Shown piece by piece: positions 1,142 to 53,398 of a stretch of 64,000 nt of DNA. The stretch's first letter is position 1. Each line of letters begins with the position of its first letter. Both the position numbers and the translations under genes were made by a program. This DNA is from Hyunsoonleella jejuensis (GTDB lineage Bacteria; Bacteroidota; Bacteroidia; Flavobacteriales; Flavobacteriaceae): contig NZ_FOFN01000003.1 in NCBI RefSeq assembly GCF_900111025.1, positions 124,001 through 188,000 of the forward strand, given 5' to 3'. The notes below the pieces were generated by a model. That model made no database searches and was not told the origin of the DNA. It saw only the letters and a list, made by a program, of their open reading frames with translations.

Positions 1142-1150
1142 GGTACTCTT

Positions 1151-3756: not shown

Positions 3757-3824
3757 TGTTCGTATTTTATTTTAAAGCCAGTTAGAACCTAAAGCTTCAG
3801 TTTTGTTACATTTTTATGTAGGTA

Positions 3825-4529: not shown

Positions 4530-4561
4530 ATACTATTGTTTTGCCTAATGCCCAATATGGG

Positions 4562-12009: not shown

Positions 12010-12014
12010 ATCAA

Positions 12015-12683: not shown

Positions 12684-12688
12684 AATGA

Positions 12689-14984: not shown

Positions 14985-15052
14985 ATCGTTTTTGAGATTT
15001 TTAAGGTAAAAACAAAGTTAGCAAATGTATCAGTATTAGGATGAAATTCACA

Positions 15053-15457: not shown

Positions 15458-15466
15458 AATGTGAGT

Positions 15467-16600
15467 TTAAAATGAATCTGGAATAATCTTAACGATGCCA
15501 ACGCCTTCAACTCCTGCATATAAATAACCATCAGGAGCTTGTTTGATATTTCTAAACCTACCTAAACCTTCAAATAGCTTTTCGCGTTTGGAGACTTTAT
15601 TATCCTTAATCACTAAACGTTCTAGATATAGAAATTTTAATGAACCAACCAATACGCTGTCTTTCCAATCCGGATAATTACTTGAAGTTACAAAAGCCAT
15701 TCCGCTTGGGGCAATAGAAGGTACCCAGTAAAACAAAGGTTGTTCCATGCCTTCTTTTTCGGTAATTTCGGTAAACTTAGTGCCACTATAATTTATACCA
15801 TAAGAAATCACTGGCCATCCGTAGTTGTTGCCTTTTTCAACAACATTTATTTCATCCCCGCCTTTTGGTCCGTGTTCATTAACCCAAATTTTTCCAGTTT
15901 CGGGATGCATTGCCATACCTTGAGGATTGCGATGACCGAAGCTAAAAATAGCTTTTTTAGCATCAGCATTATCAACAAAAGGGTTGTCATTTGGAATAGT
16001 GCCATCTGCATGTAACCTATAAATTTTACCGCCATCTCGAGTAATATCTTGCGGGTTAACGTCGCGATTGCCTCTATCTCCAATTGAGAAATACAAATAG
16101 CCCTCTTTGTCAAATTCTATGCGAGAGCCCCAATGTTGTCCTTTTTTGGTGTTAGGCACACCTTTGTAAAGGTGTTCCACATCAGCAAGTATATTCCCGT
16201 TTAGTTTCGCACGAATAATAGCGGTATTACCACCCTCGTCCTCGCCTTCAGGAGAGCCGTATGAAAAGTATATCCAGCCATTATTTTCATAATCAGGATG
16301 TAGTTTTATATCCATTAAACCTCCTTGACCTCGTACGTAAACTTCAGGCAAGCCTTCAATAGTAGTTTTTACGCCATCTTTAAAATGTATAAGTGTTCCT
16401 GTTTTTTCGGTAATTAGGATGCTGCCGTCAGGTAAAAATTCCATACCCCATGGAATATTCAATTCAGGCACAATAACCTCAGTAACATAATTTATTTTTA
16501 GAGGTGTTTCTGCTGAAATTTCTGAAGGTTCTTGCTGTGCGCAAGAGTAGAAAGAAATTAGTAGAACTGCTAGAAGCAAAGTGAACTGTTTCATTTTCAT
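15467..16600 (-). CDS. PQQ-dependent sugar dehydrogenase (GSDH family), lipoprotein
   Basis: The glucose/sorbosone dehydrogenase beta-propeller is recognised by LNIPWGMEFLPDGSILITEK, QGGLMDIKLHPDY, HWGSRIEFDKEGYLYFSIGDRG and FGHRNPQGMAMHPETGKIWVNEHGPKGGDE. The His, Arg and Glu of these blocks line the PQQ site in the family. I chose the ATG at 16600 (377 residues), which gives a clean lipoprotein signal with Cys20 (FYSCAQQ). An in-frame ATG at 16624 overlaps the upstream TonB-receptor stop (TAATG) and would add 8 residues. The enzyme oxidises aldoses in the periplasm and passes electrons to quinone or cytochrome c; the substrate here is unknown. Confidence 0.9.
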   Translation of the reverse strand: MKMKQFTLLLAVLLISFYSCAQQEPSEISAETPLKINYVTEVIVPELNIPWGMEFLPDGSILITEKTGTLIHFKDGVKTTIEGLPEVYVRGQGGLMDIKLHPDYENNGWIYFSYGSPEGEDEGGNTAIIRAKLNGNILADVEHLYKGVPNTKKGQHWGSRIEFDKEGYLYFSIGDRGNRDVNPQDITRDGGKIYRLHADGTIPNDNPFVDNADAKKAIFSFGHRNPQGMAMHPETGKIWVNEHGPKGGDEINVVEKGNNYGWPVISYGINYSGTKFTEITEKEGMEQPLFYWVPSIAPSGMAFVTSSNYPDWKDSVLVGSLKFLYLERLVIKDNKVSKREKLFEGLGRFRNIKQAPDGYLYAGVEGVGIVKIIPDSF

Positions 16601-24651: not shown

Positions 24652-25479
24652 ATGAGTAAAACAATTGTAGTGACTGGTGCAGGAGGCGTGCTTTGTAGCA
24701 CTATAGCTGAAGCCCTAGCTAAAGAAGGAAATAAAATAGCCTTACTAGATTTAAACAAAGAGGCAGCCGCTAAGGTTGCTGAAAAAATTAATAGTTCTGG
24801 AGGTGCAGCTATAGGGGTTAAAGCCAATGTTTTAGAAAAGGAATCCTTAGTGTTAGCAAAAGAAACAGTAAATAAAGCTTTTGGGGAATGTGATATTTTA
24901 ATAAATGGAGCAGGTGGTAATCACCCTTTAGGAACTACAAGTAACCCCTTTTTACAAGCAGAAGATTTGCTAAATAAAACCGAAGGGTTTAAAACATTTT
25001 TTGATTTAGACGCTAGTGGTATTCAGTTTGTATTTAACTTGAATTTTATTGGAACACTTTTGCCAACACAAATTTTTGCTCAAGATATGGTTGGTAGAGA
25101 GGGCTGCAGTATTTTAAATGTTTCCTCAATGAATGCGTTTACACCTTTAACAAAAATACCGGCCTACAGTGGCGCGAAAGCGGCAGTATCAAACTTTACG
25201 CAATGGTTAGCTGTTCATTTTTCAAAAGTTGGTATCCGAGTAAATGCATTAGCCCCAGGGTTTTTCTTAACCGAGCAAAATAGGGCATTATTAACTAATG
25301 AAGATGGAAGTTTAACGCCAAGGGGAAATCAAATTATAGAACAAACGCCAATGGGTAAATTTGGTGAGCCAGAGCATTTAGTAGGAACAACATTGTGGTT
25401 GTGTGGTGAAGGTGCTTCTTTTGTAACAGGAGTAGTTGTGCCAATAGATGGTGGATTTAGTGCTTACAGTGGCGTATAA
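24652..25479 (+). CDS. uxuB: SDR-type D-mannonate oxidoreductase (fructuronate reductase)
   Basis: This 275-residue short-chain dehydrogenase has the cofactor motif TGAGGVLCS (residues 8-16), the NGAGG segment, a catalytic Ser in NVSSMNAF and the Tyr/Lys pair in PAYSGAKAA. The inserted block around NHPLGTTSNPFLQAEDLL and the GFFLTEQNRALL segment resemble the SDR form of UxuB known from Bacillus, not the longer mannitol-dehydrogenase form of E. coli. It would reduce D-fructuronate to D-mannonate. It is the first gene of the operon, 18 bases before uxuA, its pathway partner. Confidence 0.85.
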   Translation: MSKTIVVTGAGGVLCSTIAEALAKEGNKIALLDLNKEAAAKVAEKINSSGGAAIGVKANVLEKESLVLAKETVNKAFGECDILINGAGGNHPLGTTSNPFLQAEDLLNKTEGFKTFFDLDASGIQFVFNLNFIGTLLPTQIFAQDMVGREGCSILNVSSMNAFTPLTKIPAYSGAKAAVSNFTQWLAVHFSKVGIRVNALAPGFFLTEQNRALLTNEDGSLTPRGNQIIEQTPMGKFGEPEHLVGTTLWLCGEGASFVTGVVVPIDGGFSAYSGV

Positions 25480-25497
25480 ATTATAATATAACTTTAA

Positions 25498-26673
25498 ATG
25501 GAACAAACTTGGAGATGGTACGGACCGAACGATCCCGTATCCTTATCAGATATAAAGCAAGCAGGTGCAACAGGAATTGTATCTGCGCTACATCATATTC
25601 CCAACGGAGAAGTATGGACTATAGATGAAATTACGAAGAGGAAAGAAATTATAGAGCACGCCGGTTTAACCTGGAGTGTTGTAGAAAGTATTCCTGTTCA
25701 TGAAAATATTAAAACCCGTTCAGGGAATTTTAAAACCTATATTGAACATTACAAACAAAGCATTGAAAATCTAGCAAAATGTGGAATAAATATAGTGTGT
25801 TACAATTTTATGCCAGTACTAGATTGGACGCGAACAGATTTAAATTTTGAAGTAGAGGATGGCTCCAAAGCCTTACGTTTTGATGTGGTTGCATTTGCCG
25901 CCTTTGAGCTATTCTTATTAAAGCGCCCTGGGGCGGAAGATAGTTACAGCGATACTCAAAAAGCATCGGCCAAAGTATATTTTGAAGGACTTAAAGACGC
26001 TGAAAAAACGGAACTTGTAAATAATATTATTGCAGGTTTACCTGGCGCAGAAGAAGGCTATACGCTTGAGCAGTTTCAAACCATTTTAGATACTTATGCA
26101 GGCATTGATGCCCAAACCTTAAGAGAAAATTTAGTATCGTTTTTAAAAGAAATTATACCAGTGGCTTCACAGAATGGTGTGCTTATGTGTATTCACCCTG
26201 ATGATCCACCATATCCAATTTTAGGACTGCCAAGAGTAGTAAGCACAGAGGCGGATTATGCGTATTTATTTAATAATGTTCCAGATAGAGCTAACGGTAT
26301 TACATTCTGTACGGGCTCTTTGGGGGTAAGGGCTGATAATGATTTGGTGAAAATATTTAAGCGTTTTTCCGATCGCGTACATTTCCTGCACCTAAGAAGC
26401 ACAAAACGTGATGAGCACGGTAATTTTTATGAAGCCAATCACCTCGATGGTGATGTAGATATGTATAGCGTTGTAAAGGAAATTCTTATTGAAGAAAAGA
26501 GAAGAAAAGCAAATGGGTATACCGATTTTGCAATTCCTGTAAGACCAGATCACGGCCATCAAATGCTTGATGACTTACATAAAAAAACAAACCCTGGGTA
26601 TTCTGGTATAGGAAGACTACGCGGTTTGGCAGAATTGAGAGGGTTAGAATTTGGATTAAAACAAACGATATAA
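25498..26673 (+). CDS. uxuA: Mannonate dehydratase
   Basis: This 391-residue enzyme dehydrates D-mannonate to 2-keto-3-deoxy-D-gluconate. The start [20 protein letters not shown] and the blocks [50 protein letters not shown] and [11 protein letters not shown] are hallmarks of UxuA, and contain the metal-binding Cys/His/Asp residues. It lies 16 bases before kduI. Confidence 0.96.
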
Positions 26674-26689
26674 TAAAATTATAAAAACA

Positions 26690-27532
26690 ATGAAAACGTA
26701 TTACGAAACAAGATATGCATCAAGTCCACAAGGCGTAAAATCCTATGATACAAAGCAATTAAGAGAAGAGTTTTTAATAGATAATTTAATGCAAGAGGAT
26801 AAAATTGTTTTAGTATACTCTCATTATGACAGATTTATCTCCGGTAGTGCAGTTCCAACAAAAACTGCATTGAAATTGGAAGTTATAGATCCTTTAAAAG
26901 CCGACTATTTTTTGGAAAGAAGAGAACTAGGTATTATTAATATAGGAGCTGCTGGAACTGTTAATGTTGATGGTGTAGAATATGTTTTAGAACATAGAGA
27001 GGCATTATATGTAGGTCAAGGAAATAGAGATTTAACTTTTGCCAGTAAATCAGCCACTGATCCTGCCTTGTTTTATATTAATTCAACACCTGCTAATAAA
27101 GCATACCCTAATAAGAAAATTGGAATTAATGATGTTGAAGTTATAGAGCTAGGTGCTCCTGAAACTGCAAATGCACGTACTTTAAGAAAGTATATTGTAA
27201 ACAGTGTTGTTGATGTTTGCCAATTGCAAATGGGAATGACCACTTTAAAATCAGGTAGTTCGTGGAATACCATGCCTGCCCATGTACACGACAGACGAAT
27301 GGAAGTTTATTTTTATTTTGAAATTCCAGAAGGCCAAGCAGTATGTCATTTTATGGGGCAGCCCCAAGAAACACGACATATTTGGATGGGAAATAACCAA
27401 GCAGTAATTTCACCACCATGGTCAATTCACTCTGGTTCAGGAACAAGTAGCTATTCTTTTATATGGGGAATGGCAGGTGAAAATTTAGATTATGGCGATA
27501 TGGATGTTGCTAAAATAAATGAATTAAGATAA
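26690..27532 (+). CDS. kduI: 5-dehydro-4-deoxy-D-glucuronate isomerase
   Basis: This 280-residue cupin-type enzyme isomerises 4-deoxy-5-keto-uronate, the rearranged product of unsaturated uronates made by polysaccharide lyases. It shows MKTYYETRYASSPQGVKSYD at the start, the metal-binding HVHDRRMEVYFYFE block and the HIWMGNNQAVISPPWSIHSG block. Its presence shows that the locus receives unsaturated uronic acid as well as the saturated acids handled by UxaC. It is 3 bases before kduD. Confidence 0.96.
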   Translation: MKTYYETRYASSPQGVKSYDTKQLREEFLIDNLMQEDKIVLVYSHYDRFISGSAVPTKTALKLEVIDPLKADYFLERRELGIINIGAAGTVNVDGVEYVLEHREALYVGQGNRDLTFASKSATDPALFYINSTPANKAYPNKKIGINDVEVIELGAPETANARTLRKYIVNSVVDVCQLQMGMTTLKSGSSWNTMPAHVHDRRMEVYFYFEIPEGQAVCHFMGQPQETRHIWMGNNQAVISPPWSIHSGSGTSSYSFIWGMAGENLDYGDMDVAKINELR

Positions 27533-27535
27533 GTT

Positions 27536-28330
27536 ATGAGTCTATCATTGTTTGATGTTAAAGGGAAAAATGCCTTAGTAACAGGAAGTACACATGGTTT
27601 AGGTATGGCCATGGCCAGAGGTTTGGGTTTAGCAGGTGCTACAATTATTGTAAATGGTAATTCATCTCAAGATAAAATCGATAAGGCGGTTGCCCAATAT
27701 AAGAGTGAAGGTATTAATGCTGTGGGCTACAAGTTTAATGTCGCCAATGAAGATGAGGTTGTTGCTGCCATTTCAAAAATTCAGGAAGAGGTCGGACAAA
27801 TAGATATTTTAATAAATAATGCCGGTATTATTAAGCGTACACCACTTATTGAAATGGAGGTTGAAGACTTCAAGCAAGTTATTGATATCGATTTGGTAAG
27901 TCCGTTTATAGTATCAAAACACGTGGTGCCGGGTATGATTAAGCGTAAGTCGGGTAAAGTAATTAATATTTGCTCTATGATGAGTGAGTTGGGTCGAAAT
28001 AGTGTTGGCGCTTATGCCGCGGCTAAAGGTGGATTAAAAATGTTGACTCAAAATATGGCTACCGAATGGGCAAAACATAATATTCAAGTAAATGGTATTG
28101 GTCCGGGATACTTTGCAACTTCACAAACAGCTCCAATTCGTGTGGATGGCCATCCATTTAACGATTTTATTATAAACAGAACACCCGCTGCCAAATGGGG
28201 AGATCCAGACGATTTAGCCGGTGCAGCAATATTTTTATCATCAAAAGCTAGTGACTTTGTAAATGGTCAAGTAGTTTATGTTGATGGTGGTATTTTGGCA
28301 ACTATTGGAAAACCTTCAAACGAAGATTAA
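27536..28330 (+). CDS. kduD: 2-dehydro-3-deoxy-D-gluconate 5-dehydrogenase (KduD/gluconate 5-dehydrogenase type)
   Basis: This 264-residue SDR has the motif TGSTHGLG (residues 16-23), NNAGIIKRTP, a catalytic Ser in NICSMMSELG and Tyr/Lys in AYAAAKGG, and ends VVYVDGGILATIG. KduD and gluconate 5-dehydrogenase are close homologues; its place right after kduI favours KduD, which reduces 2,5-diketo-3-deoxygluconate to 2-keto-3-deoxygluconate. It is 2 bases before the DUF4861 gene. Confidence 0.9.
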   Translation: MSLSLFDVKGKNALVTGSTHGLGMAMARGLGLAGATIIVNGNSSQDKIDKAVAQYKSEGINAVGYKFNVANEDEVVAAISKIQEEVGQIDILINNAGIIKRTPLIEMEVEDFKQVIDIDLVSPFIVSKHVVPGMIKRKSGKVINICSMMSELGRNSVGAYAAAKGGLKMLTQNMATEWAKHNIQVNGIGPGYFATSQTAPIRVDGHPFNDFIINRTPAAKWGDPDDLAGAAIFLSSKASDFVNGQVVYVDGGILATIGKPSNED

Positions 28331-28332
28331 TT

Positions 28333-29511
28333 ATGAAAAAAGTAACTCTGTTTTCAGCCCTGAGCGTACTACTGTGTTTTTTTGGATGCGGTCAAGCAAA
28401 GGAGCATGTAATAACTATTGAGAATTCTTTAGATATAGCGCGTTCTTTTGAAACAATAGAAATCAACGCTTCTGATTTAACATTAACTGGAGGTGAAGCT
28501 TTTGAAAACTTGTCGGTAAAAGATTTAAAGACCAATACTATTGTAGTGTCTCAATTTGTAGATACCGATGAAGATGGAAAGGTAGATATGTTATTGTTTC
28601 AACCAGAAATTGAAGCCAATAGCTCGAAGCAATATGAGCTTCTCGTTGTTGATGAATCGCAAAAACCAGAAACGGTAGACTATTGTTACTCAAGATTTGT
28701 TCCGGAAAGAACCGATGATTATGCTTGGGAAAACAATAAAGTTGGATTCAGAACTTTCGGGCCAACAGCCCAAAAAATGGTAGAAGATTCAATTAAAGGT
28801 GGAACGCTTTCTAGTGGCATTGATGCTTGGTTAAAGCGTGTTGAATATCCAATAATTAATAAATGGTATGCCGAAGATCAAAAAGAAAAGGGCGCATATC
28901 ATAAAGATAAAGGAGAGGGTTTAGATAATTTTCATGTTGGTGTATCTCGTGGTGTTGGAGGTATAGCTATAAAGTCAGATTCAGTCTATCATTTTTCAAA
29001 AAATTTCACAACTTGGAAAACCATTACAACAGGGCCTATTCGAACTAGTTTTGTTTTAGAATATGCCAATTGGGATGCTAATGGCAAGACGATTTCAGAA
29101 ACCAAACATATATCTTTAGATTATGGTAATAACTTGTCAAAGTTTGAAGTAGCACTTTCTGGAAGTGAAAGCGTTCATGTGGGTTTAACACTTCACGAAA
29201 AAGATGGAGTAGATACGCAAAATCAAGACTCGGGTTGGGTGTCGTATTGGCAACCACATGAAGATTCTCAATTGGGTACAGCCATTGTAGTTCCAAAGGG
29301 AAGCTTCATATCTGCAACTTTATATGATACCCCTTTAAAAGACCGAAGTAACCTTTTTGCTGAAGTAAAAGTTAATAATGGCATAGCAACTTATTATGCT
29401 GGATTTGGTTGGGAAAAAGCAGGAGAGTTCACCTCAAAAAAGTCATGGAATACTTATTTAGAAAGTTTTTCAAAAAAATTAAATAACCCTTTAATAGTAG
29501 TCTATAATTAG
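28333..29511 (+). CDS. DUF4861 lipoprotein
   Basis: This 392-residue protein has a lipoprotein signal (Cys19 in FFGCGQ) and a beta-rich body with blocks typical of DUF4861 proteins: VGFRTFGPTAQKMVEDSIKGG, SSGIDAWLKRVEYPIINKWY, GEGLDNFHVGVSRGVGG and YYAGFGWEKAGEF. Family members accompany pectin, ulvan and other uronate-glycan loci in Bacteroidota, but I know of no assigned activity for this one. It is anchored in the envelope. It is tightly packed in the operon (2 bases after kduD, 8 bases before uxaC), so it probably acts on an uronate-containing oligosaccharide. Confidence 0.85.
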   Translation: MKKVTLFSALSVLLCFFGCGQAKEHVITIENSLDIARSFETIEINASDLTLTGGEAFENLSVKDLKTNTIVVSQFVDTDEDGKVDMLLFQPEIEANSSKQYELLVVDESQKPETVDYCYSRFVPERTDDYAWENNKVGFRTFGPTAQKMVEDSIKGGTLSSGIDAWLKRVEYPIINKWYAEDQKEKGAYHKDKGEGLDNFHVGVSRGVGGIAIKSDSVYHFSKNFTTWKTITTGPIRTSFVLEYANWDANGKTISETKHISLDYGNNLSKFEVALSGSESVHVGLTLHEKDGVDTQNQDSGWVSYWQPHEDSQLGTAIVVPKGSFISATLYDTPLKDRSNLFAEVKVNNGIATYYAGFGWEKAGEFTSKKSWNTYLESFSKKLNNPLIVVYN

Positions 29512-29519
29512 ATTAATAA

Positions 29520-30932
29520 ATGAAATCAACCAATTTTATTACTGATAATTTTGTTTTGCAGTCTGATGTGGCTGAAACCTTATATCATAAATATGCTAAA
29601 GATTTGCCTATTATAGATTATCATAATCATTTATCACCACAATTAATAGCCGAAGATCAACCTTTAAAAAATATTACAGAAGCATGGCTTAATGGCGATC
29701 ATTACAAATGGCGCGCTATGCGAGCAAACGGAATTGACGAAATATTTATAACAGGTTCGGCCACTTCTCATAAAGAGAAATTCTTAAAATGGGCCGAAAC
29801 CGTGCCGAAGACTATTAGAAATCCATTATTCCACTGGACTCATTTAGAGCTGAAACGCTATTTTGATATTGATAATTTGCTGCATCCAGATACGGCAGAG
29901 GAGATTTATGAGAAGGCCAATGCTATTTTAGAAAATAAAACACCTGCACAACTTTTAGAAGATTTAAAAGTAGAGGTAGTTTGTACTACTGATGATCCTA
30001 TAGATGATTTAAAATACCATCAAGAAATCGCCGAAAAAGGTTTTTTTACAAAAGTGTTTCCAACATTTAGGCCAGATAGCATGCTTCAGATGTTAAATGG
30101 AAACTCTTTAGTTTATATTGAAAAATTAATTGGTTGTGTTGGTTTCAAAATCAATGATTTTGAATCGTTTTTGAAGGCAATTGATAAAAGGATCGACTTT
30201 TTTCATGATAATGGTTGCAGATTATCAGATTATGGAATAAGTGGTGCCTTTACGTTTGCAGAACATACTGAAGATGAGGTTAATTCAATTTTCAACAAGT
30301 TTTTAAATGGGGAGCATTTAAATAACGTAGAAGTTGAAAAATATAAAACATATCTTTCATTATACTTAGGAAGAAAATATCATGAAAAAGGATGGGTACA
30401 GCAGTATCATTTAGGTGTAATTCGAAATAATAACACGAGATTGCAAAATATAGTTGGCTTAGATGCGGGGTGCGATTCTATTGGAGATTTTCCAATTATT
30501 GAAGGGCTTTCTAAGTTTTTAAACACGCTAAATGAATCTAATCAATTAGCAAAAACCATAACGTATAATTTAAATCCTGCTCAAAATGAAACCTTTGCGA
30601 CCATGATGGGAAATTTTCAAAACGCCCAATATCCTGGTAAAATGCAATGGGGCTCAGGTTGGTGGTTCTTAGATCAAAAGGATGGCATGGAAAAGCAAAT
30701 TAATTGCCTTTCTAATATGGGATTATTAAGCAGGTTTGTAGGTATGCTTACAGATAGTCGAAGCTTTTTATCGTTTCCGCGTCACGAATATTTTAGGCGC
30801 ATTTTATGTAATCTTTTAGGTGAAGATGTGAAGCAAGGACTCATACCGAACGACATCGAGTTTTTAGGTAAAATGGTTCAAGATATCTGCTACTATAATG
30901 CTAAAAACTATTTTAGTTTTAAAACAAAATAA
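29520..30932 (+). CDS. uxaC: Glucuronate isomerase
   Basis: This 470-residue enzyme isomerises D-glucuronate to D-fructuronate (and galacturonate to tagaturonate). It is recognised by the N-terminal IIDYHNHLSPQLIAEDQPLKN block with metal-binding HxH, the TTDDPIDDLKYH block, SGAFTFAEHTEDE, and the C-terminal MLTDSRSFLSFPRHEYFRRILCNLLG. No UxaA or UxaB partner for galacturonate is present in the window, whereas UxuA and UxuB are, so glucuronate is the likely substrate. It is 2 bases before the TRAP binding protein. Confidence 0.97.
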   Translation: MKSTNFITDNFVLQSDVAETLYHKYAKDLPIIDYHNHLSPQLIAEDQPLKNITEAWLNGDHYKWRAMRANGIDEIFITGSATSHKEKFLKWAETVPKTIRNPLFHWTHLELKRYFDIDNLLHPDTAEEIYEKANAILENKTPAQLLEDLKVEVVCTTDDPIDDLKYHQEIAEKGFFTKVFPTFRPDSMLQMLNGNSLVYIEKLIGCVGFKINDFESFLKAIDKRIDFFHDNGCRLSDYGISGAFTFAEHTEDEVNSIFNKFLNGEHLNNVEVEKYKTYLSLYLGRKYHEKGWVQQYHLGVIRNNNTRLQNIVGLDAGCDSIGDFPIIEGLSKFLNTLNESNQLAKTITYNLNPAQNETFATMMGNFQNAQYPGKMQWGSGWWFLDQKDGMEKQINCLSNMGLLSRFVGMLTDSRSFLSFPRHEYFRRILCNLLGEDVKQGLIPNDIEFLGKMVQDICYYNAKNYFSFKTK

Positions 30933-30934
30933 TT

Positions 30935-31906
30935 ATGAAACAATTTATTTTAGTCTGTATTATAGCTTTTGCATTTATGTCATGTGAAAAGAAATCGGAT
31001 ACACAAACTCTATATCTAGCACACACTTTGCCTCAAGGACACCCTGTTCATAAGGGTATTTTAGAGTTTAAGAAAGCACTAAAGGAAAAGTCTGGTGGTA
31101 AAATGAATGTTAAGATATTTCCCGATGGGCAGTTAGGTTCAGAGCGTGAAGTTCTTGAACTTCTGCAAATCGGAAGTGTAGCTATTACTAAAGTTAGTGC
31201 GGCTACGCTATCTAATTTTGTGCCTGAATATCATGTGTTGGGGATACCTTATTTGTTTAGAGATAAACAACATCAGTTTGATGTTTTAGAAGGCGAAGTG
31301 GGAAAATCTATTTTAGAAAAAGGAAGTAAATTTTGGTTAAGAGGGTTAGGGTATTATGATGCAGGGAGCAGAAGCTTTTATACATCTAACAAAGCAATAA
31401 GAACTCCAGAAGATTTAAAAGGCTTAAAGATTAGAGTAATGAATAATCAAATGGCTATTAATATGGTGAATGCTATGGGAGGATCGGCAACTCCAATGGC
31501 CTACGGAGAATTATACACCGCTATACAACAAGGCGTGGTGGATGGTGCAGAGAATAACCCGCCTTCTTTCGTGTCATCAAATCATTATGAAGTTAGTAAG
31601 TATTATACCTTGGATCAACATTCTTCCGTACCCGATGTTTTGTTAATTGGAACCAAATATTGGGATAAACTTACAGAAGAGGAGAAGCAATGGGTTCAAG
31701 AAGCTATGGACGAATCTGTGCAAGCTCAAAAAAGGTTCTGGAATGAATCTGTGGAAGAATCTATGGCAATAGCAAAAAAAGCAGGTGTAGAGATAATCAT
31801 ACCTGATAAATCATTATTTCAAGAACAATCAAAATCTGTTTTAGAATCCTTTATGGAAGAGCATCCAGAAATGATTGATTTGATTAATAGAATCAAAAAT
31901 CAATAA
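30935..31906 (+). CDS. dctP: TRAP transporter substrate-binding protein (DctP family)
   Basis: This 323-residue protein has a lipoprotein-type signal (Cys17 in FMSCEKK), which is a common arrangement for Bacteroidota. It has the DctP body: LPQGHPVHKGILEFKKAL, FPDGQLGSEREVLELLQIG, RGLGYYDAGSRSFYT and GGSATPMAYGELYTAIQQGVVDGAENN. The conserved Arg in LKGLKIRVMNN would bind the ligand carboxylate. With DctQ and DctM it forms a Na+-driven transporter for an acid sugar, most likely glucuronate or its unsaturated form, judged from the flanking genes. Confidence 0.94.
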   Translation: MKQFILVCIIAFAFMSCEKKSDTQTLYLAHTLPQGHPVHKGILEFKKALKEKSGGKMNVKIFPDGQLGSEREVLELLQIGSVAITKVSAATLSNFVPEYHVLGIPYLFRDKQHQFDVLEGEVGKSILEKGSKFWLRGLGYYDAGSRSFYTSNKAIRTPEDLKGLKIRVMNNQMAINMVNAMGGSATPMAYGELYTAIQQGVVDGAENNPPSFVSSNHYEVSKYYTLDQHSSVPDVLLIGTKYWDKLTEEEKQWVQEAMDESVQAQKRFWNESVEESMAIAKKAGVEIIIPDKSLFQEQSKSVLESFMEEHPEMIDLINRIKNQ

Positions 31907-31908
31907 TT

Positions 31909-32400
31909 ATGAAAATAGCAGATATTATTTTTAATAAAGCCTGTAGAATCATGGAGATTTTCTTGGTTTTTATTTTTGGGCTTTTGGTTATTGATGTTTT
32001 GGGGCAAGTATTTTCCAGATACATTTTAAATACTTCATTTGCGTTTACTGAAGAATTAGCGCGCTTTTCTTTAATATGGATGTCAATTTTAGGCGCAGCG
32101 TATTTAAACGCCAAACGCCTGCATTTATCAATGGATTTTTTGTATCAAAAATTCTCTCCTAAAACTAGAATAAAAGTGTTGATTTTTATTGAAATATGTG
32201 TTTTTGCGTTTGCACTAATTGTTATGGTTATAGGAGGGTTTAACCTTGTTTATACAACCTTGCATTTAGGTCAGCTATCTGGAACACTTCGTATTCCTTT
32301 AGGATATATTTATATCATTTTACCCATAAGTGGATTATTGATTATGTGGTTCTCAGTATATCACATGTTTAAAATAAAAGCTAACGAAATAACCGAATAA
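31909..32400 (+). CDS. dctQ: TRAP transporter small permease (DctQ family)
   Basis: This 163-residue protein has four membrane segments and the family block FAFTEELARFSLIWMSILGAAYLNAKRLHLSMDF near residues 45-80. It assists the large permease. It is separated by 2 bases from dctP and by 2 from dctM, in the standard P-Q-M order. Confidence 0.93.
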   Translation: MKIADIIFNKACRIMEIFLVFIFGLLVIDVLGQVFSRYILNTSFAFTEELARFSLIWMSILGAAYLNAKRLHLSMDFLYQKFSPKTRIKVLIFIEICVFAFALIVMVIGGFNLVYTTLHLGQLSGTLRIPLGYIYIILPISGLLIMWFSVYHMFKIKANEITE

Positions 32401-32402
32401 TC

Positions 32403-33707
32403 ATGAGTATAGAAGTAATTAGTATTATTGTATTATTTGCAAGTTTTTTCACGCTGTTAATGCTTAAAGTTCCAGTAGCGTATAGTATTGGCATATCAAC
32501 AACCATAAGTTTATTGTTGAATATTGATAAAATGCCAGGATTAACTACAATAGCCCAACGAATGACAACAGGGATTGATAGTTTCGCATTGTTGGCGATA
32601 CCATTTTTTGTATTGGCTGGAGAAATTATGAAACGTGGAGGTATAGCAAATCGACTCATAAATTTTGCAAAGTCTTTAGTAGCAAGTTTACCCGGAGGAC
32701 TAGCGTATGTAAATGTATTAGCTTCGATGTTATTCGGAGCTATATCTGGTTCTGCAATTGCCGCAACATCTGCCATTGGGAGTATCATGACTGATAGAAT
32801 GGAGGAAGAAGGCTATCCAAGAGAATTTTGTGCTTCTGTTAATATCACATCATCTACAACGGGGTTATTAATTCCACCAAGTAATATTTTAATCGTTTAC
32901 GCTTTAGCAAGTGGCGGTGCTGCTTCCGTTGCGGCATTATTTATTGCGGGGTATTTACCAGGTATTTTACTAGGAATTGCTATTATGGGTTATATAGCAT
33001 TTGTGGCCATAACTAGAAAATTTGCTAAAGGAAGTCGTGTGCCATTATCATTAATTTGGACATATTTTAGAAAAGCATTTTTTAGTCTCTTATTGTTAGT
33101 TATTGTAGTAGGAGGTATAGTAGCAGGTATTTTTACCGCTACTGAAGCGTCAGCTATAGCGGTCTTATATGCTGCAGTTTTAGCCTTGGTTTATGGCGAT
33201 ATAACTACTAAAGATTTTCCAGATATTTTATTAACAAGTGCAAAAACGACTGCTGTTGTGATGTTTTTAATATGTACATCTATGGCAATGTCTTGGTTGT
33301 TTTCTTTTGAGGGTATCCCAGAGCTAATTAGTGGGTTTTTGTTGGAGCAATTCAGTAATAAAATCGTAATATTTCTAGTGATTAATTTGGTGTTATTAAT
33401 TATAGGAACCTTTATGGATATGACGCCTGCAGTATTAATATTTACACCTATTTTTTTACCGGTTGTAGTTGCTTTGGGTATGCATCCAGTACATTTTGGC
33501 ATCGTTTTAGTACTAAATTTATGTATTGGTTTATGTACGCCACCAGTAGGGACGATTTTATTCGTTGGTAGTGGAATCGCCAATGTTTCAGTATCGCAAG
33601 TTGTAAAACCATTATTACCATTTTTACTAATTATGGTGCTTGTTCTATTACTTATAACCTATATTCCAGAGATTTCTATGTATTTACCAAGATTATTTGA
33701 TTTGTAA
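32403..33707 (+). CDS. dctM: TRAP transporter large permease (DctM family)
   Basis: This 434-residue membrane protein has about 12 hydrophobic segments and the DctM signatures FALLAIPFFVLAGEIMKRGG, GAISGSAIAATSAIGSIM, SSTTGLLIPPSNILIVYA and LCIGLCTPPVGTILFVG. It forms the Na+-coupled translocation pathway. A 66-base gap separates it from the GH2 gene downstream. Confidence 0.95.
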   Translation: MSIEVISIIVLFASFFTLLMLKVPVAYSIGISTTISLLLNIDKMPGLTTIAQRMTTGIDSFALLAIPFFVLAGEIMKRGGIANRLINFAKSLVASLPGGLAYVNVLASMLFGAISGSAIAATSAIGSIMTDRMEEEGYPREFCASVNITSSTTGLLIPPSNILIVYALASGGAASVAALFIAGYLPGILLGIAIMGYIAFVAITRKFAKGSRVPLSLIWTYFRKAFFSLLLLVIVVGGIVAGIFTATEASAIAVLYAAVLALVYGDITTKDFPDILLTSAKTTAVVMFLICTSMAMSWLFSFEGIPELISGFLLEQFSNKIVIFLVINLVLLIIGTFMDMTPAVLIFTPIFLPVVVALGMHPVHFGIVLVLNLCIGLCTPPVGTILFVGSGIANVSVSQVVKPLLPFLLIMVLVLLLITYIPEISMYLPRLFDL

Positions 33708-47315: not shown

Positions 47316-47355
47316 AAAGCAGTATTTAAAATTTAATTTATTTAAATACTGCTTT
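47316..47355. terminator. Convergent terminator between the xylose module and the sugar-acid operon
   Basis: A perfect 15-bp stem (47316-47330 with 47341-47355) encloses a 10-base AT loop. The right arm includes the stop codon and last codons of the convergent Gfo/Idh/MocA gene. It would act on both strands. Confidence 0.65.
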
Positions 47356-48379
47356 CCATATTTATAGGAATGTTCATCTCAGCAGATTTATAGACAGCTT
47401 CTTGTACTTTTAATGTTTTTAAATAGTTAGGTCCATTGGTTTCAAAAGTTTCACCTGAAATAAGTTTATCTATAAAATCTCTCTGAAAAATATAGCAACA
47501 GTCGCCAGCAAAACCAATATCATTGTGGGTGTATTCATGCTGTTTTTCTAACTCTCCTAATTTCTGAACGGTAATTTGTCCATCAGAATATAGACGCAAT
47601 GAGCCTTTTGAACCATCAATTAAATATTCTCCAAAGGTATATCTTGATTTTTTGAAATTGTTCTCATTAAACCTGTTGGCATCCCAAACGGCAGTTGCTT
47701 TATTTTCAAAACTTAAAATCATTAAACCTGCATCTTCGCCTTTTATAACAGGATTTAATCGTTTAAGAATGGCGTATACACTTTTAACTTCACCAGCATG
47801 ATAGCGGAACGTATCGATAAAATGTACGCCGGTTTCATATATAAGTAATTTTTTATAATCCCTAAAATAAGGTTGTCTTGCCAAATAGGCATCGTCTCCC
47901 CAACCATCGCCCATTCGGGACCTGAAATTAAGTTGAAACAAATCTCCTAAATCATCATTATCGATAATCTTTTTTATCTCGCGATGCCAGGGCTGAAACC
48001 TAAAATTCTCATGCACTACAAAACGCACACCTTTAGACTTTACGTAGTCTACAATTTTTTGAGATTCTTGGATAGTAGGCGCTAATGGTTTTTGACATAT
48101 AATGTGCACACCTTGGTCTGCAGCAAATTTACACATCTCAAAGTGTGTTTCAGGAGGTGTAATAATGTCCACAAAGTCAGGTTTTTCCTTTAAAATCATG
48201 TCCTTATAGTCGGTATAATGATTATCTATACCATAAGAATTCATAATACCTTTAGCCCTTGCCATATTAGAATTGCAAAGTGCTGTGATTTCCACCTCTG
48301 GAATACGAGTCCAAGCTTCATATTGAAATTTACTGAAGTATCCGGCGCCTATGGCGACTCCTTTTAATTTATTTTTCAT
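47342..48379 (-). CDS. Gfo/Idh/MocA family oxidoreductase
   Basis: I start this gene at the ATG in 48379 (345 residues, MKNKLKGVAIGAGYFSKFQY), which puts the Rossmann motif GAGYFS at the N-terminus; the frame is open to 48427, well inside the MFS gene. The EKP dihydrogenase-type motif appears as CQKPLAPT (Lys for cofactor and substrate). The C-terminal domain has FRFQPWHREIKK and LLIYETGVHFIDTFRYHAGE. Family members oxidise or reduce a sugar or sugar-acid hydroxyl with NAD(P). It is the last gene of the operon and overlaps the MFS gene by 11 bases. Confidence 0.88.
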   Translation of the reverse strand: MKNKLKGVAIGAGYFSKFQYEAWTRIPEVEITALCNSNMARAKGIMNSYGIDNHYTDYKDMILKEKPDFVDIITPPETHFEMCKFAADQGVHIICQKPLAPTIQESQKIVDYVKSKGVRFVVHENFRFQPWHREIKKIIDNDDLGDLFQLNFRSRMGDGWGDDAYLARQPYFRDYKKLLIYETGVHFIDTFRYHAGEVKSVYAILKRLNPVIKGEDAGLMILSFENKATAVWDANRFNENNFKKSRYTFGEYLIDGSKGSLRLYSDGQITVQKLGELEKQHEYTHNDIGFAGDCCYIFQRDFIDKLISGETFETNGPNYLKTLKVQEAVYKSAEMNIPINMESSI

Positions 48380-49634
48380 GACGAATGGCTTTAGAAGAAT
48401 CCATAAATAACCAACAAAAAATGGCAACTACGCCTAAAAAGGCGGCTACATAGAAAAATGGTTCATTCGAACCGGTCCAATCTAATAAATATGGAAACGC
48501 TAATGCCGTGGTAAAAGCCCCGATATTACCAGCCATATTCATCATTCCTGAAACTTTTCCAGAGTGTTCTTTACCAATGTCCATACAAAAGGACCAAGAA
48601 GGGCTCAACGTCATATCAGCACCAAATATGGCAACCGATAAGCATAATACAGCCCCAAGAGCTGTTTCCATAAATAAACTAGAAAGTATGCCAATAACCA
48701 CAAACACAAAGCCTATGATTGCAGGTACTTGTCTGGATAATTTCCAGTTTCCTTTTTTATAAATAGCGTCTACTGTATAACCAGAAACCCAGTTTCCAAG
48801 TGCCCCTGCAAGAAGTGGTAACATGGCATAGAATCCTGTTGTTACTAAATTCAACCCATATTTAGCTTTTATATAAGGAAATAACCATGTTAACGTAAAA
48901 AAGAAAATAAAATTACTTCCAATGTATTGAATCATAGCTAATATCACGTTTTTAGATCCTAGGATACGACTTATGGGCAGGTTAGCTTTTATTTCCTCTA
49001 CCTCCTGCTGACGGTTTTTTATTATAAATTGCTTTTCGGCATCGGAAATACCATTATGTTCTTCAGGTTTATTTCTAAAGAGCATATAAAATAGAATGGA
49101 ACATACAATCCCAATGGCACCAAAAAAGTAAAAAATATTACGCCAGCCCCAAGCATCGATTAAATAGGCAACCAGCGGCAATGCAAAAGCAGCGCCCAAT
49201 CTGGATCCTGAGAAATTAATACCTTGAAAAATACCGCGTTCCTTTAATGGTACCCATGAAAATGCCGCTCTGGAAATATTGGGGAATGCCCCAGCTTCAC
49301 CAGCTCCAAAAATAAACCTAAAAAGAACCATAGATACATAATTCCACGCCAGTCCTGTAAACGCTGTAAAAATTGACCATAAAACCATAATTGAAGTCAT
49401 TACTTTACGCACCCCATATCTATCTCCCAGTGCACCTCCAGGAACTTGAAATAGGGCATAACCTAATGCAAATGCGCTTAAAACCCATCCCATTTGAATA
49501 TCGGTAAGATTTAAGTCCCCACTTATAGCATCTTTTGCGGATGATATACAAACACGGTCTATATATAATAGTAATGTAATAAAGAAAGAGCCTGCAAAGA
49601 ACCCATATCGCCTTTTTGGAATGCTTGTATTCAT
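48369..49634 (-). CDS. MFS transporter, anion:cation symporter family (sugar acid)
   Basis: This 421-residue protein has 12 membrane segments and the ACS-family signatures LLYIDRVCISSAKDAI, QMGWVLSAFALGYALFQVPGGALGDRYGVRKV and FGAGEAGAFPNISRAAFSWVP. The family includes hexuronate (ExuT), glucarate and tartrate transporters. Beside a tartrate-type dehydrogenase and a four-carbon acid kinase, a small sugar acid is the likely cargo. It starts 2 bases after the kinase stop. Confidence 0.9.
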   Translation of the reverse strand: MNTSIPKRRYGFFAGSFFITLLLYIDRVCISSAKDAISGDLNLTDIQMGWVLSAFALGYALFQVPGGALGDRYGVRKVMTSIMVLWSIFTAFTGLAWNYVSMVLFRFIFGAGEAGAFPNISRAAFSWVPLKERGIFQGINFSGSRLGAAFALPLVAYLIDAWGWRNIFYFFGAIGIVCSILFYMLFRNKPEEHNGISDAEKQFIIKNRQQEVEEIKANLPISRILGSKNVILAMIQYIGSNFIFFFTLTWLFPYIKAKYGLNLVTTGFYAMLPLLAGALGNWVSGYTVDAIYKKGNWKLSRQVPAIIGFVFVVIGILSSLFMETALGAVLCLSVAIFGADMTLSPSWSFCMDIGKEHSGKVSGMMNMAGNIGAFTTALAFPYLLDWTGSNEPFFYVAAFLGVVAIFCWLFMDSSKAIRHEK

Positions 49635-49636
49635 AA

Positions 49637-51040
49637 TTAGTTTAGTTTTTGTATTATTTTTAGAAGGGAATTTTCATTGCCTACATTACCAGGAAATACG
49701 ATATAAAGTAAATCAGGAAACTTGGTTTCTTTGCCCATAGACCAAACAGGAATCCCAGCTTCTATCTGACCCAAGACTTTTGAACGTTTCATGCCTAAAC
49801 CTTTTGTTGCTAAATCATGAGAGGTGATACCACCCTTGGCCAGAATATACTTAGGACGGACGTTAAGGGTTTTTATCAAACTCACCAGAGTATTTGATAC
49901 TTTTGACGCGATGTTAATATTTGATGCTGTGTCTTTCCCAGAAATTAACGTTCTGCTTGTATAAACTATAACATCTTTTCCTTGTGTTAAATTCCCTTCT
50001 ATTTTAGAAATTATGGATACAACATATTCGTTTGATTGTTTGCCTAAAATGGTCTCTACGTCTATTTCAACAATACAATCTTTTGTATAATGATTTAATG
50101 CAGCATTAAGTTGAAGGGAAGACTTTTTAACATAAGACCCTACAATCGTTAAGCCCCCGCAATGATTGCTACTATTAAGTATCTCTTTGGAGCTTAATAA
50201 GCCTTTTGGTTGTTGCCCGATGTAGGAGGGAACAAAAGAACTGGAGGTTCTAAAAAATATCATTTTTCCAGATGCTTCCGCAAGTAAAATAGCATGGGTA
50301 AATTTATCTAAATCGTTATAATTTAAAGCGTTTGCAATACAAAACTGATTAGCCTTCAATGCTATTATTTGCTTGCTTAGTGATACAACATCAAATGATC
50401 GTATAGTATTTATACTAAATGAGTAAACGTTAGAAGCTATTATTTTTCCATTTGTCTTTTCTTCTATATACGCCTTTAAATTTGCATTTGAATAGGCAAA
50501 AGTATGATCCTCTGCAAACGGTGTTTCATTTACAGGAGTAAGGAAATCACTATCAGAAATATAGTGGGTATCATTAACAGATACCCGTCCGCCTTCAAAC
50601 ATAACAGGAATAAAAAAAGAAATGGCTTCCTGTACTGCAATAGTTTGCTTAATGGCTTCTATTTCAGAAAAATGGCCTCGTAGTGTCGAATCACTGCGAC
50701 TAATTATGGTAAATTCACGATTGGTAAGTTTTGAAGCTTCTGCGATGTTCTTAGATATTTCGGTATAAATTTCAGATGATTTCTCTTCGGATAAGCTTCT
50801 GGAATTCGTTAATATAAAAAATACGGGGGTTTCGTTTTTAAACTCATTAAGAATGGTTTCCTTATCCCAATTCGTTAATAGTGGAATATCATAGACTGTT
50901 TGATTGCCAGTTGGGTCGTCATCAATAACGATGCAAGTTCTATTTAATTGCTTAAAAAGGAGGTGGTTCATTCCTCTGTAATTAGAGGTATCTTCCAAAG
51001 GTAACTGTTGTGATATGTCTGATAAGGGTATGCGCATCAA
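49637..51040 (-). CDS. Four-carbon acid sugar kinase family protein (DUF1537, OtnK/DtnK-like)
   Basis: This 467-residue protein has the N-terminal domain of the DUF1537 kinases (VIDDDPTGNQTVYDIPLLTNW near residues 37-57, FFILTNSRSLSE, ISRSDSTLRGHF) and the C-terminal nucleotide-binding domain (AKGGITSHDLATKGLG, then VFPGNVGNE). Kinases of this family phosphorylate threonate, erythronate or 3-oxo-tetronates at C4. The known pathways pair the kinase with PdxA2 or an aldolase, and neither is present here. It overlaps the cyclase-family gene by 4 bases. Confidence 0.9.
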   Translation of the reverse strand: MMRIPLSDISQQLPLEDTSNYRGMNHLLFKQLNRTCIVIDDDPTGNQTVYDIPLLTNWDKETILNEFKNETPVFFILTNSRSLSEEKSSEIYTEISKNIAEASKLTNREFTIISRSDSTLRGHFSEIEAIKQTIAVQEAISFFIPVMFEGGRVSVNDTHYISDSDFLTPVNETPFAEDHTFAYSNANLKAYIEEKTNGKIIASNVYSFSINTIRSFDVVSLSKQIIALKANQFCIANALNYNDLDKFTHAILLAEASGKMIFFRTSSSFVPSYIGQQPKGLLSSKEILNSSNHCGGLTIVGSYVKKSSLQLNAALNHYTKDCIVEIDVETILGKQSNEYVVSIISKIEGNLTQGKDVIVYTSRTLISGKDTASNINIASKVSNTLVSLIKTLNVRPKYILAKGGITSHDLATKGLGMKRSKVLGQIEAGIPVWSMGKETKFPDLLYIVFPGNVGNENSLLKIIQKLN

Positions 51041-51672
51041 TATTTTTCTATGGCAATAACTCTTGCCGGAGCGCCGTCTCCGTTACTTATTTTTAAAGGT
51101 AGTGCAATAAGTTCTACACAGTTTGATTGTAAGGCATTAATATTTGTAAGGCCTTCAATGATTACAACACCTTTAAGTAAGATTTGGTGAATTTTAGTAA
51201 CTTCTTTTAAGTTATTTACATCTGCGACAGATGGAGGCTCAACACCAATCATTTTCACCTTGTTTTCAAGACACCAAAGCGCAAGCTCTTCGCTTATTCT
51301 GGGCAATTCATCTCTATACTTTGGAGTATTCACAAATTGCGACCAATCCGTCCAAAAAATAAGACTATCTCCTTTTGAAAATTTTTCTAATACGTTTTCA
51401 GGAATATGGTTTGAATATATCAATCCTTGAGAACCAACATTACGAACATCGATAACCCAGGCTTTCCCAACAAAATCGGAAACAGGAATTTTATCTATAG
51501 TTTGTTGGCTTACATTAAAATGGATAGGGGCGTCCATATGCGTGCCACAATGCGAATAAAAGGTTAATGTACTCGCATTCCATCCATCTTTTTCAATGAT
51601 TTTACTGGTTTCTTTGGAAAAACCAGTAAAATCATTTGTAAAATTTAGTGTAAGATCAACAATAGTATTCAT
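51037..51672 (-). CDS. Cyclase-family metal-dependent hydrolase
   Basis: This 211-residue protein belongs to the PF04199 family (kynurenine formamidase-like). The metal site motif is SHCGTHMDAPIHF (about residues 40-52), followed by VIDVRNVG, LIFWTDWSQ and MIGVEPPSVAD. Members hydrolyse amides, lactones or cyclic compounds. In this operon a lactone or ester of a sugar acid would be a logical substrate (inference). It lies 6 bases after the dehydrogenase gene. Confidence 0.85.
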   Translation of the reverse strand: MNTIVDLTLNFTNDFTGFSKETSKIIEKDGWNASTLTFYSHCGTHMDAPIHFNVSQQTIDKIPVSDFVGKAWVIDVRNVGSQGLIYSNHIPENVLEKFSKGDSLIFWTDWSQFVNTPKYRDELPRISEELALWCLENKVKMIGVEPPSVADVNNLKEVTKIHQILLKGVVIIEGLTNINALQSNCVELIALPLKISNGDGAPARVIAIEKY

Positions 51673-51678
51673 TTGCTA

Positions 51679-52725
51679 TTAAAGATTTCTAATAACAGCA
51701 TCAGCTACATCTGAAGTACTAGCATTTCCTCCCAAATCTATGGTTAATACACCCGAAGATGTACTTTTGTCTATAGCTTCCATAATATTATTTGCAGCCT
51801 CAGTTTCTCCTAAATGTTCCAACATAATGGCAGCAGACCAAATTTGTCCGTAAGGATTAGCTATATTTTGCCCTGCAATATCTGGAGCAGATCCATGAAT
51901 AGGTTCAAACATAGAAGGAAATTCCTTTTCTGGATTAATGTTTCCACTACCGCCAAGACCAAGACTTCCCATTACAGCACCACCTAAATCACTTAAAATA
52001 TCACCAAAAAGATTAGTCGTTAAAACCACATCAAAAATTTCTGGTTTAAGAACAAAACTAGCTGTGGAGTTATCGATATACATTTGGTCATGAACAACAT
52101 CAGGATACTGTAAAGCAACTTCTTTAATAACACGATCCCAATAGGTTAAGCTATTAATTAAGGTATTAGATTTTGTAATATGGGTTACTTTCTTTCTTCT
52201 TGTTCGAGCTAATTTAAAGGCGTAATGAGCTACACGTTCTATTCCTTTTCTAGTAAACACACTGGTATCTGTACCCATTCCGTTTGCAGAATCTGGTAGG
52301 TATTGTCCACCCATTTGCACGAACTCGCCTTCGGTATTTTCTCTAACAATTACAAAATCGATATGTTTTTCAGTTCTCAAAGGTCTTGTTACACCTGGAT
52401 AGGTCCTTACAGGTCTGTAATTAACATACTGATTAAAACTTGTACGTACCTTAAATGTGTAGTCTTTGGCAGGAAGCGTATCATCGACAGCTGGTAAACC
52501 GACTGAACCGAAATACACCGCATCAAATTCTTTTAAAGTTTCTAATCCATCTTCGGGTAAGAATTTTTTGTTTTTAAGGTAATAACCTGCACCCCAATCA
52601 AAAGTCTTTGATGAAATACTAAAGTTATGTTTTTTAGCAACAGCCTCCAATACTCTATAGCCTTCTGGAACTATTTCGTTTCCTATGCCATCTCCTGGCA
52701 CTACTGCAATATTATAGTTTTTCAC
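51679..52725 (-). CDS. Tartrate/D-malate-type decarboxylating dehydrogenase (isopropylmalate dehydrogenase family)
   Basis: This 348-residue enzyme shows VVPGDGIGNEIVPEG at the start, SFNQYVNYRPVRTYPGV with the substrate-binding Arg, FVIVRENTEGEFVQMGG, HITKSNTLINSLTYWD with the catalytic Lys, DVVLTTNLFGDILSDLGG with the metal-binding Asp, and EPIHGSAPDIAG. The NYRPVRTYPG and EGEF segments place it with tartrate dehydrogenase (TtuC) and D-malate dehydrogenase (DmlA), not LeuB. It needs a 2-hydroxy acid with a 3-carboxylate, so a malate-, tartrate- or substituted-malate-like acid is expected. It lies 12 bases downstream of the regulator gene. Confidence 0.9.
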   Translation of the reverse strand: MKNYNIAVVPGDGIGNEIVPEGYRVLEAVAKKHNFSISSKTFDWGAGYYLKNKKFLPEDGLETLKEFDAVYFGSVGLPAVDDTLPAKDYTFKVRTSFNQYVNYRPVRTYPGVTRPLRTEKHIDFVIVRENTEGEFVQMGGQYLPDSANGMGTDTSVFTRKGIERVAHYAFKLARTRRKKVTHITKSNTLINSLTYWDRVIKEVALQYPDVVHDQMYIDNSTASFVLKPEIFDVVLTTNLFGDILSDLGGAVMGSLGLGGSGNINPEKEFPSMFEPIHGSAPDIAGQNIANPYGQIWSAAIMLEHLGETEAANNIMEAIDKSTSSGVLTIDLGGNASTSDVADAVIRNL

Positions 52726-52737
52726 TTTTTTGGTTTT

Positions 52738-53361
52738 TTATTGATTTAATAATAATTCTCGAGATTTTTTTATATGTAGTCTGGCATGTTTTTCTGCCTC
52801 ATCAGCATTGCCACTGGCAATAGCATTTATAATGTTAAAATGTTCTTCTAGTGTTTCTTCTGGAGGTCTTACAAGTCCATGACCTATAACTTTATCGTGT
52901 ATTTTTCCGAAGAAGTAAATTTTATCAAGAGGCGCATTCTCTGTAAGTTTAATTAATAATGAATGAAATTTTTCATCGGCTCTTGAATAGGCCTCAATAT
53001 TAATTTTGTTCCCTGACTGAAAGGGCGTAAAACAATTTTCTAGTTGTGCTACTATCTTATTATCTTTTAAATATGCCAGTAAACGAGCAGCCATTCCTTC
53101 TATGGCTTCACGACATATATAGATATCTATAATCTCTTTTTTGTCAAACGCCTTAACATACATGCCTCTTCTTGGAACGCTTTCTACTAAATATTCATTT
53201 TCAAGGGTTAATAAAGCTTTCATGAGAGGTGTTCTACTTACACCTAGCGATTCCGCAATTTTTTCCTGAATTATTTTTTCGCCTTGTTTTAATTCGCCAT
53301 TTAAAATCATTTCCTTTAACTTTAAATAAATTGGCTGGCTTATATTTTTATGTTCAATCAT
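52738..53361 (-). CDS. GntR-family regulator, FCD (FadR) type
   Basis: This 207-residue protein has an N-terminal winged helix (residues 8-70; GELKQGEKIIQEKIAESLGV, SRTPLMKALLTLE) and a helical FCD ligand-binding domain (DIYICREAIEGMAARLLAYL, then SRADEKFHSLLIK with metal-ligand Asp/His, and HFNIINAIASGNADEAEKHARLHI). It heads the sugar-acid operon. A perfect palindrome 22-37 bases upstream of its ATG is its likely operator, so autoregulation is expected. Confidence 0.93.
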   Translation of the reverse strand: MIEHKNISQPIYLKLKEMILNGELKQGEKIIQEKIAESLGVSRTPLMKALLTLENEYLVESVPRRGMYVKAFDKKEIIDIYICREAIEGMAARLLAYLKDNKIVAQLENCFTPFQSGNKINIEAYSRADEKFHSLLIKLTENAPLDKIYFFGKIHDKVIGHGLVRPPEETLEEHFNIINAIASGNADEAEKHARLHIKKSRELLLNQ

Positions 53362-53382: not shown

Positions 53383-53398
53383 ATTTTGTATACAAAAT
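53383..53398 (-). promoter_or_regulatory. Perfect 16-bp palindrome, likely operator of the GntR/FCD regulator
   Basis: ATTTTGTATACAAAAT is identical to its own reverse complement. The GTATAC core flanked by T and A tracts is typical of sites bound by FCD-type GntR regulators. It lies 22-37 bases before the regulator start codon and overlaps the place expected for its core promoter. Confidence 0.75.

Follow-up and report, generated by a model that had tools for sequence, protein, structure and literature searches.

A conserved Bacteroidota operon pairing a DUF1537 kinase with a TtuC-like dehydrogenase as a candidate sugar-acid pathway

The window analyzed here, a 64,000-nucleotide stretch of the Hyunsoonleella jejuensis genome (contig NZ_FOFN01000003.1, positions 124,001 to 188,000), contains a minus-strand block of six genes at 47342-53361. 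Pfam and NCBIfam annotation assigns them to a GntR/FCD regulator, a TtuC-like dehydrogenase, a cyclase-family hydrolase, a DUF1537 acid-sugar kinase, a major facilitator superfamily (MFS) transporter and a Gfo/Idh/MocA oxidoreductase (Table 1). Our analysis confirms this operon as a real and conserved module. Tentatively, and at somewhat less than even odds, we read it as a pathway that breaks down a small sugar acid. The likeliest compound is a tetronate (an aldonate of the C4 class) or the corresponding lactol/lactone; a tetronate-like substrate is favored, with a tartrate-like acid as the main rival. Short and conserved, the cassette offers a candidate for one more DUF1537 kinase pathway that lends itself to direct testing, in a kinase branch on which we found little literature.

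A conserved gene order across Bacteroidota

The order TtuC-like dehydrogenase, cyclase, kinase, MFS and Gfo recurs in 14 Bacteroidota loci, namely the window and 13 others (L017, L019-L028, L046 and L047), so the arrangement is not a product of chance. Named hosts comprise three Algibacter and a Flammeovirgaceae metagenome-assembled genome (MAG); the rest belong to several genera and families of the same phylum. Kinase and Gfo matches coincide in an identical set of 8 of 396 genomes of the order (6 of 109 genera), and strong kinase matches share an identical set of 5 of 395 genomes of the phylum with TtuC-like matches of at least 61% identity. Two copies are irregular: the kinase of L047 (9136-10490, on a MAG contig) lies in two overlapping frames, probably through a sequencing or assembly error, and a Gfo match at G391:C8:391965-392984 (L085) carries one in-frame TAA according to the search.

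Within the window the genes are tightly coupled, with distances from FCD to Gfo of 12, 6, about -1, 2 and -11 bases, in agreement with an earlier note on this DNA. The last distance follows from the Gfo start, probably the ATG at 48379 rather than the TTG at 48427, which creates an 11-base overlap with the MFS gene. Neither PdxA nor OtnC is encoded among the six annotated genes, and neither was seen among the annotated neighbors of any of the 14 cassettes. The combination of a DUF1537 kinase with a TtuC-type dehydrogenase in the absence of PdxA2 and OtnC, proposed from the window sequence, thus holds throughout these loci, and no orthologous operon with PdxA2 or OtnC came to light beside them.

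Table 1 Features of the operon in the window
Feature	Coordinates	Strand	Evidence
GntR/FCD transcriptional regulator	52738..53361	-	Pfam GntR + FCD
NAD-dependent dehydrogenase, TtuC-like (tartrate/isopropylmalate dehydrogenase family), with Phe at the catalytic Tyr position	51679..52725	-	PF00180 308 bits
Cyclase-family metal hydrolase, probable lactonase	51037..51672	-	PF04199 98 bits
DUF1537 acid-sugar kinase	49637..51040 (start 51037/51040)	-	PF07005 + PF17042
MFS transporter (anion:cation symporter type) that probably brings the acid across the inner membrane	48369..49634	-	PF07690 218 bits
Gfo/Idh/MocA oxidoreductase, distantly related to D-apiose dehydrogenase (5uhw)	47342..48379	-	PF01408 + PF22725
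Perfect palindrome TTTTGTATACAAAA, probable FCD-regulator operator	53384..53397	no strand	0-mismatch match

The regulator is the variable part of the cassette. FCD proteins occur in 5 of the 14 cassettes (window, L017, L025, L026 and L028), while a LacI-family regulator takes their place in five loci tested (L019, L020, L021, L023 and L027). The FCD start is preceded, at a distance of 22 bases, by the palindrome TTTTGTATACAAAA. Its core, TTTGTATACAAA, has a single match in the 3.48 Mb genome, and so has a reversed control pattern. TTGTATACAA is conserved ahead of the regulator gene at each of the five FCD-type loci, and the LacI-type loci lack it. The regulator, whether FCD or LacI, may repress the operon by acting at a palindrome adjoining its own start. 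The TTGTATACAA core is also found on a Niallia taxi plasmid (L041, 6915-6924), between a divergent FCD regulator and garR of a Bacillota garR-kinase operon.

Placement of the kinase and the dehydrogenase

The kinase clears the curated cut-offs of both DUF1537 domains (PF07005, 145 against 25 bits; PF17042, 116 against 28 bits). Membership in the DtnK, 3-OtnK or OiaK equivalogs was rejected; the sole NCBIfam match, NF047819 (DtnK), scored 60.6 against a cut-off of 450. A tree of 29 kinases and a comparison of their motifs likewise separate the cassette kinases from OtnK-, DtnK- and OiaK-linked ones. Their signature (DDDPTGxQTV, SRxDSTLRGHF/Y, AKGGITS and FPGNVG) is common to Bacillota kinases adjoining garR and GntP and to kinases adjoining F_bP_aldolase genes in Deinococcus, Rhodococcus and Arthrobacter. 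In L034, too, a garR-linked kinase is followed by a cyclase-family gene. Arthrobacter is reported to degrade L-threonate in three steps: 2-oxo-L-threonate is phosphorylated by 2-OtnK, and a 2-OtnC of the F_bP_aldolase type then gives dihydroxyacetone phosphate (Guo et al. 2024, as summarized in PMC12540250). On the gene layout described in that summary, rather than on sequence, the cassette kinase appears to belong with the 2-OtnK branch. PdxA2 and DtnK, to which the operon was initially compared, are consequently the wrong reference.

The dehydrogenase falls just below the tartrate dehydrogenase model TIGR02089 (469.2 against a cut-off of 470.4; 473 for its orthologue in L020). Iso_dh (PF00180) was the only domain detected in it, and no PdxA domain was found. 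It is not the LeuB of its host: the genome (G000, 3.48 Mb, 99.99% complete) holds three Iso_dh genes. The two that lie beyond the window reach 431.6 and 412, above the TIGR00169 (LeuB) cut-off of 353.2, compared with 258.5 for the operon enzyme. The idea that this might be the organism's only LeuB, considered in the earlier note, can be set aside on this basis.

In our tree the cassette dehydrogenases form the sister group of tartrate dehydrogenase, with 3flk as the closest characterized relative, and the Arg, Lys and metal-binding Asp residues typical of the family are conserved in them. However, the catalytic Tyr, which is located seven positions past the third substrate Arg and which we take to be equivalent to Tyr160 of isocitrate dehydrogenase and Tyr139 of isopropylmalate dehydrogenase, is Phe in all 14 cassette proteins (F135 in the window; codon 52321-52323). 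Tyr is retained in 3flk, in L055, L073 and L074 and in both LeuB proteins of the genome. The substrate-pocket segment also differs, reading LWGSLLK in 3flk and [KR]D[YF]T in 13 of the 14 cassette proteins. Judged from sequence, the Tyr-to-Phe change would fit the loss of the decarboxylation/protonation half-reaction; an active-site change of this kind in a textbook enzyme family predicts oxidation without decarboxylation, or altered protonation. A structure predicted from the single sequence reached a confidence (pLDDT) of 36 and was not used.

The same residue change occurs in a second, proteobacterial Iso_dh lineage that is 37% identical to the cassette enzyme (L049, L052, L057, L068, L069 and L072). 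Four of these six loci carry otnK and otnC, and L049 and L052 carry a Gfo gene 38-41% identical to that of the cassette. Relatives in L058, L059 and L070 and three tartrate dehydrogenases have Tyr. The combination of Iso_dh with a DUF1537 kinase is therefore not unique; the proteobacterial clusters use another Iso_dh subfamily and another kinase branch. We consider it somewhat unlikely, though worth stating, that the TtuC-like enzyme, with Phe at the proton-donor position, serves a new acid-sugar pathway as a non-decarboxylating 2-hydroxyacid dehydrogenase that replaces LtnD/DenD and supplies a 2-oxo-acid kinase. On that reading, two lineages of Iso_dh, both partnered with acid-sugar kinases or with related Gfo proteins, would have acquired the Phe separately. 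On rhizobial plasmids, L057, L068 and L072 share a conserved set of LtnD-like dehydrogenase, FCD regulator, Phe-type Iso_dh, aldehyde dehydrogenase, otnK and otnC, to which L057 and L068, as annotated, add an ABC transporter, a quinol-monooxygenase-like protein and a HAD protein; this cluster is apparently an undescribed acid-sugar route.

A candidate route and its alternatives

From these placements we infer a sequence of reactions and a substrate class. The MFS protein would import the acid; its closest NCBIfam model is the D-galactonate transporter subfamily TIGR00893, with a score under the cut-off, and its best solved relative is the D-galactonate transporter 6e9n (E=1.5e-41). The Gfo protein may convert a lactol or aldose to the lactone, which the cyclase-family enzyme would open to the acid. 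The TtuC-like enzyme could then use NAD+ to oxidize the C2 hydroxyl to a 2-oxo acid, whose terminal CH2OH the DUF1537 kinase would phosphorylate. TtuC-family enzymes oxidize the C2 hydroxyl, which suits a 2-oxo-acid kinase. The phosphorylated product would reach lower glycolysis through a reaction for which no known OtnC is responsible. In the earlier scheme of import, lactone or ester opening, oxidation or oxidative decarboxylation, and phosphorylation, the oxidative decarboxylation is now less certain because the catalytic Tyr is Phe.

At the front end, the solved structure closest to the Gfo protein is 5uhw (E=1.4e-42; 30% identity), which in turn shares 82% identity with the Gfo encoded alongside ApnL and OiaX in a Rhizobium apiose cluster. 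Assignment as D-apiose dehydrogenase (ApsD) was rejected, since the cassette proteins form a clade of their own, and at this distance no more than a broad role as an aldose/lactol dehydrogenase can be carried over. The metal motif of the cyclase-family protein (SHxGTHMDAPxHF type; HxGTHxDxPxH) is intact in 13 of 13 aligned cassette proteins, and kynurenine formamidase was dismissed as its identity (TIGR03035, 85.8 against a cut-off of 223). Lactone hydrolases of differing families adjoin related Gfo genes, namely ApnL and, in L049 and L052, a protein of the N-acyl homoserine lactonase (metallo-beta-lactamase, MBL) family, which by analogy suggests that the cyclase-family protein is the lactonase of the cassette. 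Also in the nearest non-Bacteroidota Gfo tier are L048, L050 and L051, clusters with genes for a thiamine pyrophosphate (TPP)-binding protein, a sugar-phosphate isomerase and a cupin, an inositol-like context.

Several observations weigh against a tetronate route. Its weakest point is the last step. No dedicated F_bP_aldolase-type 2-OtnC is present in the cassette, and most of the ten cassette genomes compared have none besides the glycolytic enzyme: nine of them have a single F_bP_aldolase, in most cases 24-30% identical to 2-OtnC-type proteins, and one (G370) has no Aldolase_II protein. Neither known OtnC type hence completes the route generally, and most cassette genomes offer no candidate for 2-OtnC or 3-OtnC. 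Either the TtuC-like enzyme decarboxylates after all, or an unrecognized enzyme acts, or the phosphorylated product needs no decarboxylation. The retained Arg residues, which bind the second carboxylate in malate-type substrates, would suit a diacid, and the lactone-forming role of Gfo is a guess from 30% identity to the apiose enzyme. Nor does the presence of Phe strictly go with a neighboring kinase gene: the Phe-type loci L052 and L069 have no kinase in the stretch, and the Tyr-type L070 lies near an OiaK-like kinase.

The missing OtnC is the main support for a tartrate-type route, in which the TtuC-like enzyme would carry out the oxidative decarboxylation of a diacid, either tartrate-like or a C3-substituted malate, to give the C3 product (hydroxypyruvate or glycerate) that the kinase would phosphorylate. 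Such a route does not require OtnC, draws on the sister relationship to tartrate dehydrogenase (3flk) with the same Arg, Lys and Asp residues, and matches the Bacillota kinases of the same branch that adjoin garR, whose usual product is D-glycerate. Against it, the catalytic Tyr is Phe in every member, the pocket is altered in 13 of 14, the kinase branch has neighborhoods of the 2-OtnK type, as these are summarized in PMC12540250, rather than glycerate-kinase ones, and the Gfo and cyclase genes are left without an obvious job. We regard this route as unlikely, if still a real contender.

The reaction order could also resemble that of PdxA2 pathways, with the kinase acting first and the TtuC-like enzyme then oxidizing and decarboxylating a 4-phospho acid to triose phosphate in place of PdxA2. 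OtnC would again be dispensable, TtuC and PdxA are generally known as related NAD- and metal-dependent dehydrogenases, and the Lys/Arg and Asp/Thr gained in the pocket segment could hold a phosphate. The kinase nevertheless falls outside the DtnK branch, the dehydrogenase retains the Arg residues that would accommodate a second, free carboxylate, and Phe stands in place of the proton-donating Tyr; we judge this order quite improbable.

The surroundings of the operon raise a further alternative, a dedicated step in ulvan breakdown, for which the neighboring polysaccharide locus would liberate the sugar or sugar acid. The operon is divergent from SusC/SusD genes, with the same neighbors in L025 and L026; the locus holds hexuronate catabolism (UxaC, UxuA and KduI), a PL28 ulvan lyase lies downstream, and L027 is flanked by an ulvan-lyase-domain protein and a rhamnosidase. 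However, the cassettes of L021, L028, L046 and L047 lie outside polysaccharide loci, and that of L024 adjoins sulfatases and an alginate-lyase-family gene. Wider neighborhoods do not support an ulvan-specific role, as Algibacter loci adjoin ulvan-type genes and other genera do not. We rate a dedicated role of this kind as very unlikely; ulvan breakdown is not the fixed setting of the cassette, which is a portable module.

Two neighboring regions are recorded for their gene content. Window positions 24652-33707 encode UxaC, UxuA, KduI, two short-chain dehydrogenases/reductases (SDRs), a DUF4861 protein and a TRAP transporter (DctP, DctM), unusual company in a polysaccharide locus. Downstream of the window, L013 (G000:C7:188001-208000; 1001-4965 and 10802-16551) encodes a 3-keto-disaccharide hydrolase, three Gfo/Idh/MocA proteins, GH43, GH3 and GH88, which suggests a 3-keto-glycoside route alongside ulvan breakdown.

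Should the tetronate route prove true, it would correct the automatic labels 'tartrate dehydrogenase' and 'four-carbon acid sugar kinase' in marine Bacteroidota and add a route for sugar-acid carbon in algal-polysaccharide degraders.

Comparison with known systems

A four-step threonate/erythronate pathway through LtnD/DenD, OtnI, 3-OtnK and 3-OtnC was reportedly described by Zhang et al. in 2016. The cassette resembles it in combining a DUF1537 kinase, an NAD dehydrogenase and a transporter, but its kinase belongs to another branch, its dehydrogenase to another superfamily, and OtnI and OtnC are lacking. With the DtnK and PdxA2 system for D-threonate it shares a DUF1537 kinase beside a PdxA-related NAD- and metal-dependent dehydrogenase, although PdxA itself is absent and the kinase remains at 60.6 against the DtnK cut-off of 450. 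The tartrate system TtuC/TtuB provides the nearest dehydrogenase relative and the same transporter superfamily, whereas the cassette has Phe for the catalytic Tyr and adds kinase, cyclase and Gfo genes.

The logic of a Gfo dehydrogenase, a lactone hydrolase and a DUF1537 kinase recalls the D-apiose/D-apionate pathway (ApsD, ApnL, OiaK and OiaX). The D-apionate pathway proper was rejected: the cassette has no RuBisCO-like protein or ApnL, its kinase is not OiaK and its Gfo lies outside the apiose clade. The LtnD/2-OtnK/2-OtnC pathway (Guo et al. 2024, via PMC12540250), as far as its summary describes it, is similar in kinase branch by layout and, presumably, in a dehydrogenase that makes the 2-oxo acid before phosphorylation. 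The cassette differs from it in its TtuC-type dehydrogenase, the lack of an F_bP_aldolase-type 2-OtnC within the cassette, with none besides the glycolytic enzyme in most genomes, and the added Gfo and cyclase genes.

Finally, a Sulfitobacter mediterraneus plasmid cluster (L049) comprises Iso_dh, Gfo and GntR genes with a TRAP transporter, a lactonase-family protein and verified OtnK and OtnC; no LtnD or OtnI is annotated within that stretch. We count this pairing in favor of the tetronate route. It departs from the cassette in an Iso_dh of 37% identity, a kinase of the 3-OtnK branch, the presence of OtnC and TRAP in place of MFS. The two nevertheless share the same enzyme superfamilies and the same Tyr-to-Phe change, and L049 belongs to the closest non-Bacteroidota Gfo tier (40% identical).

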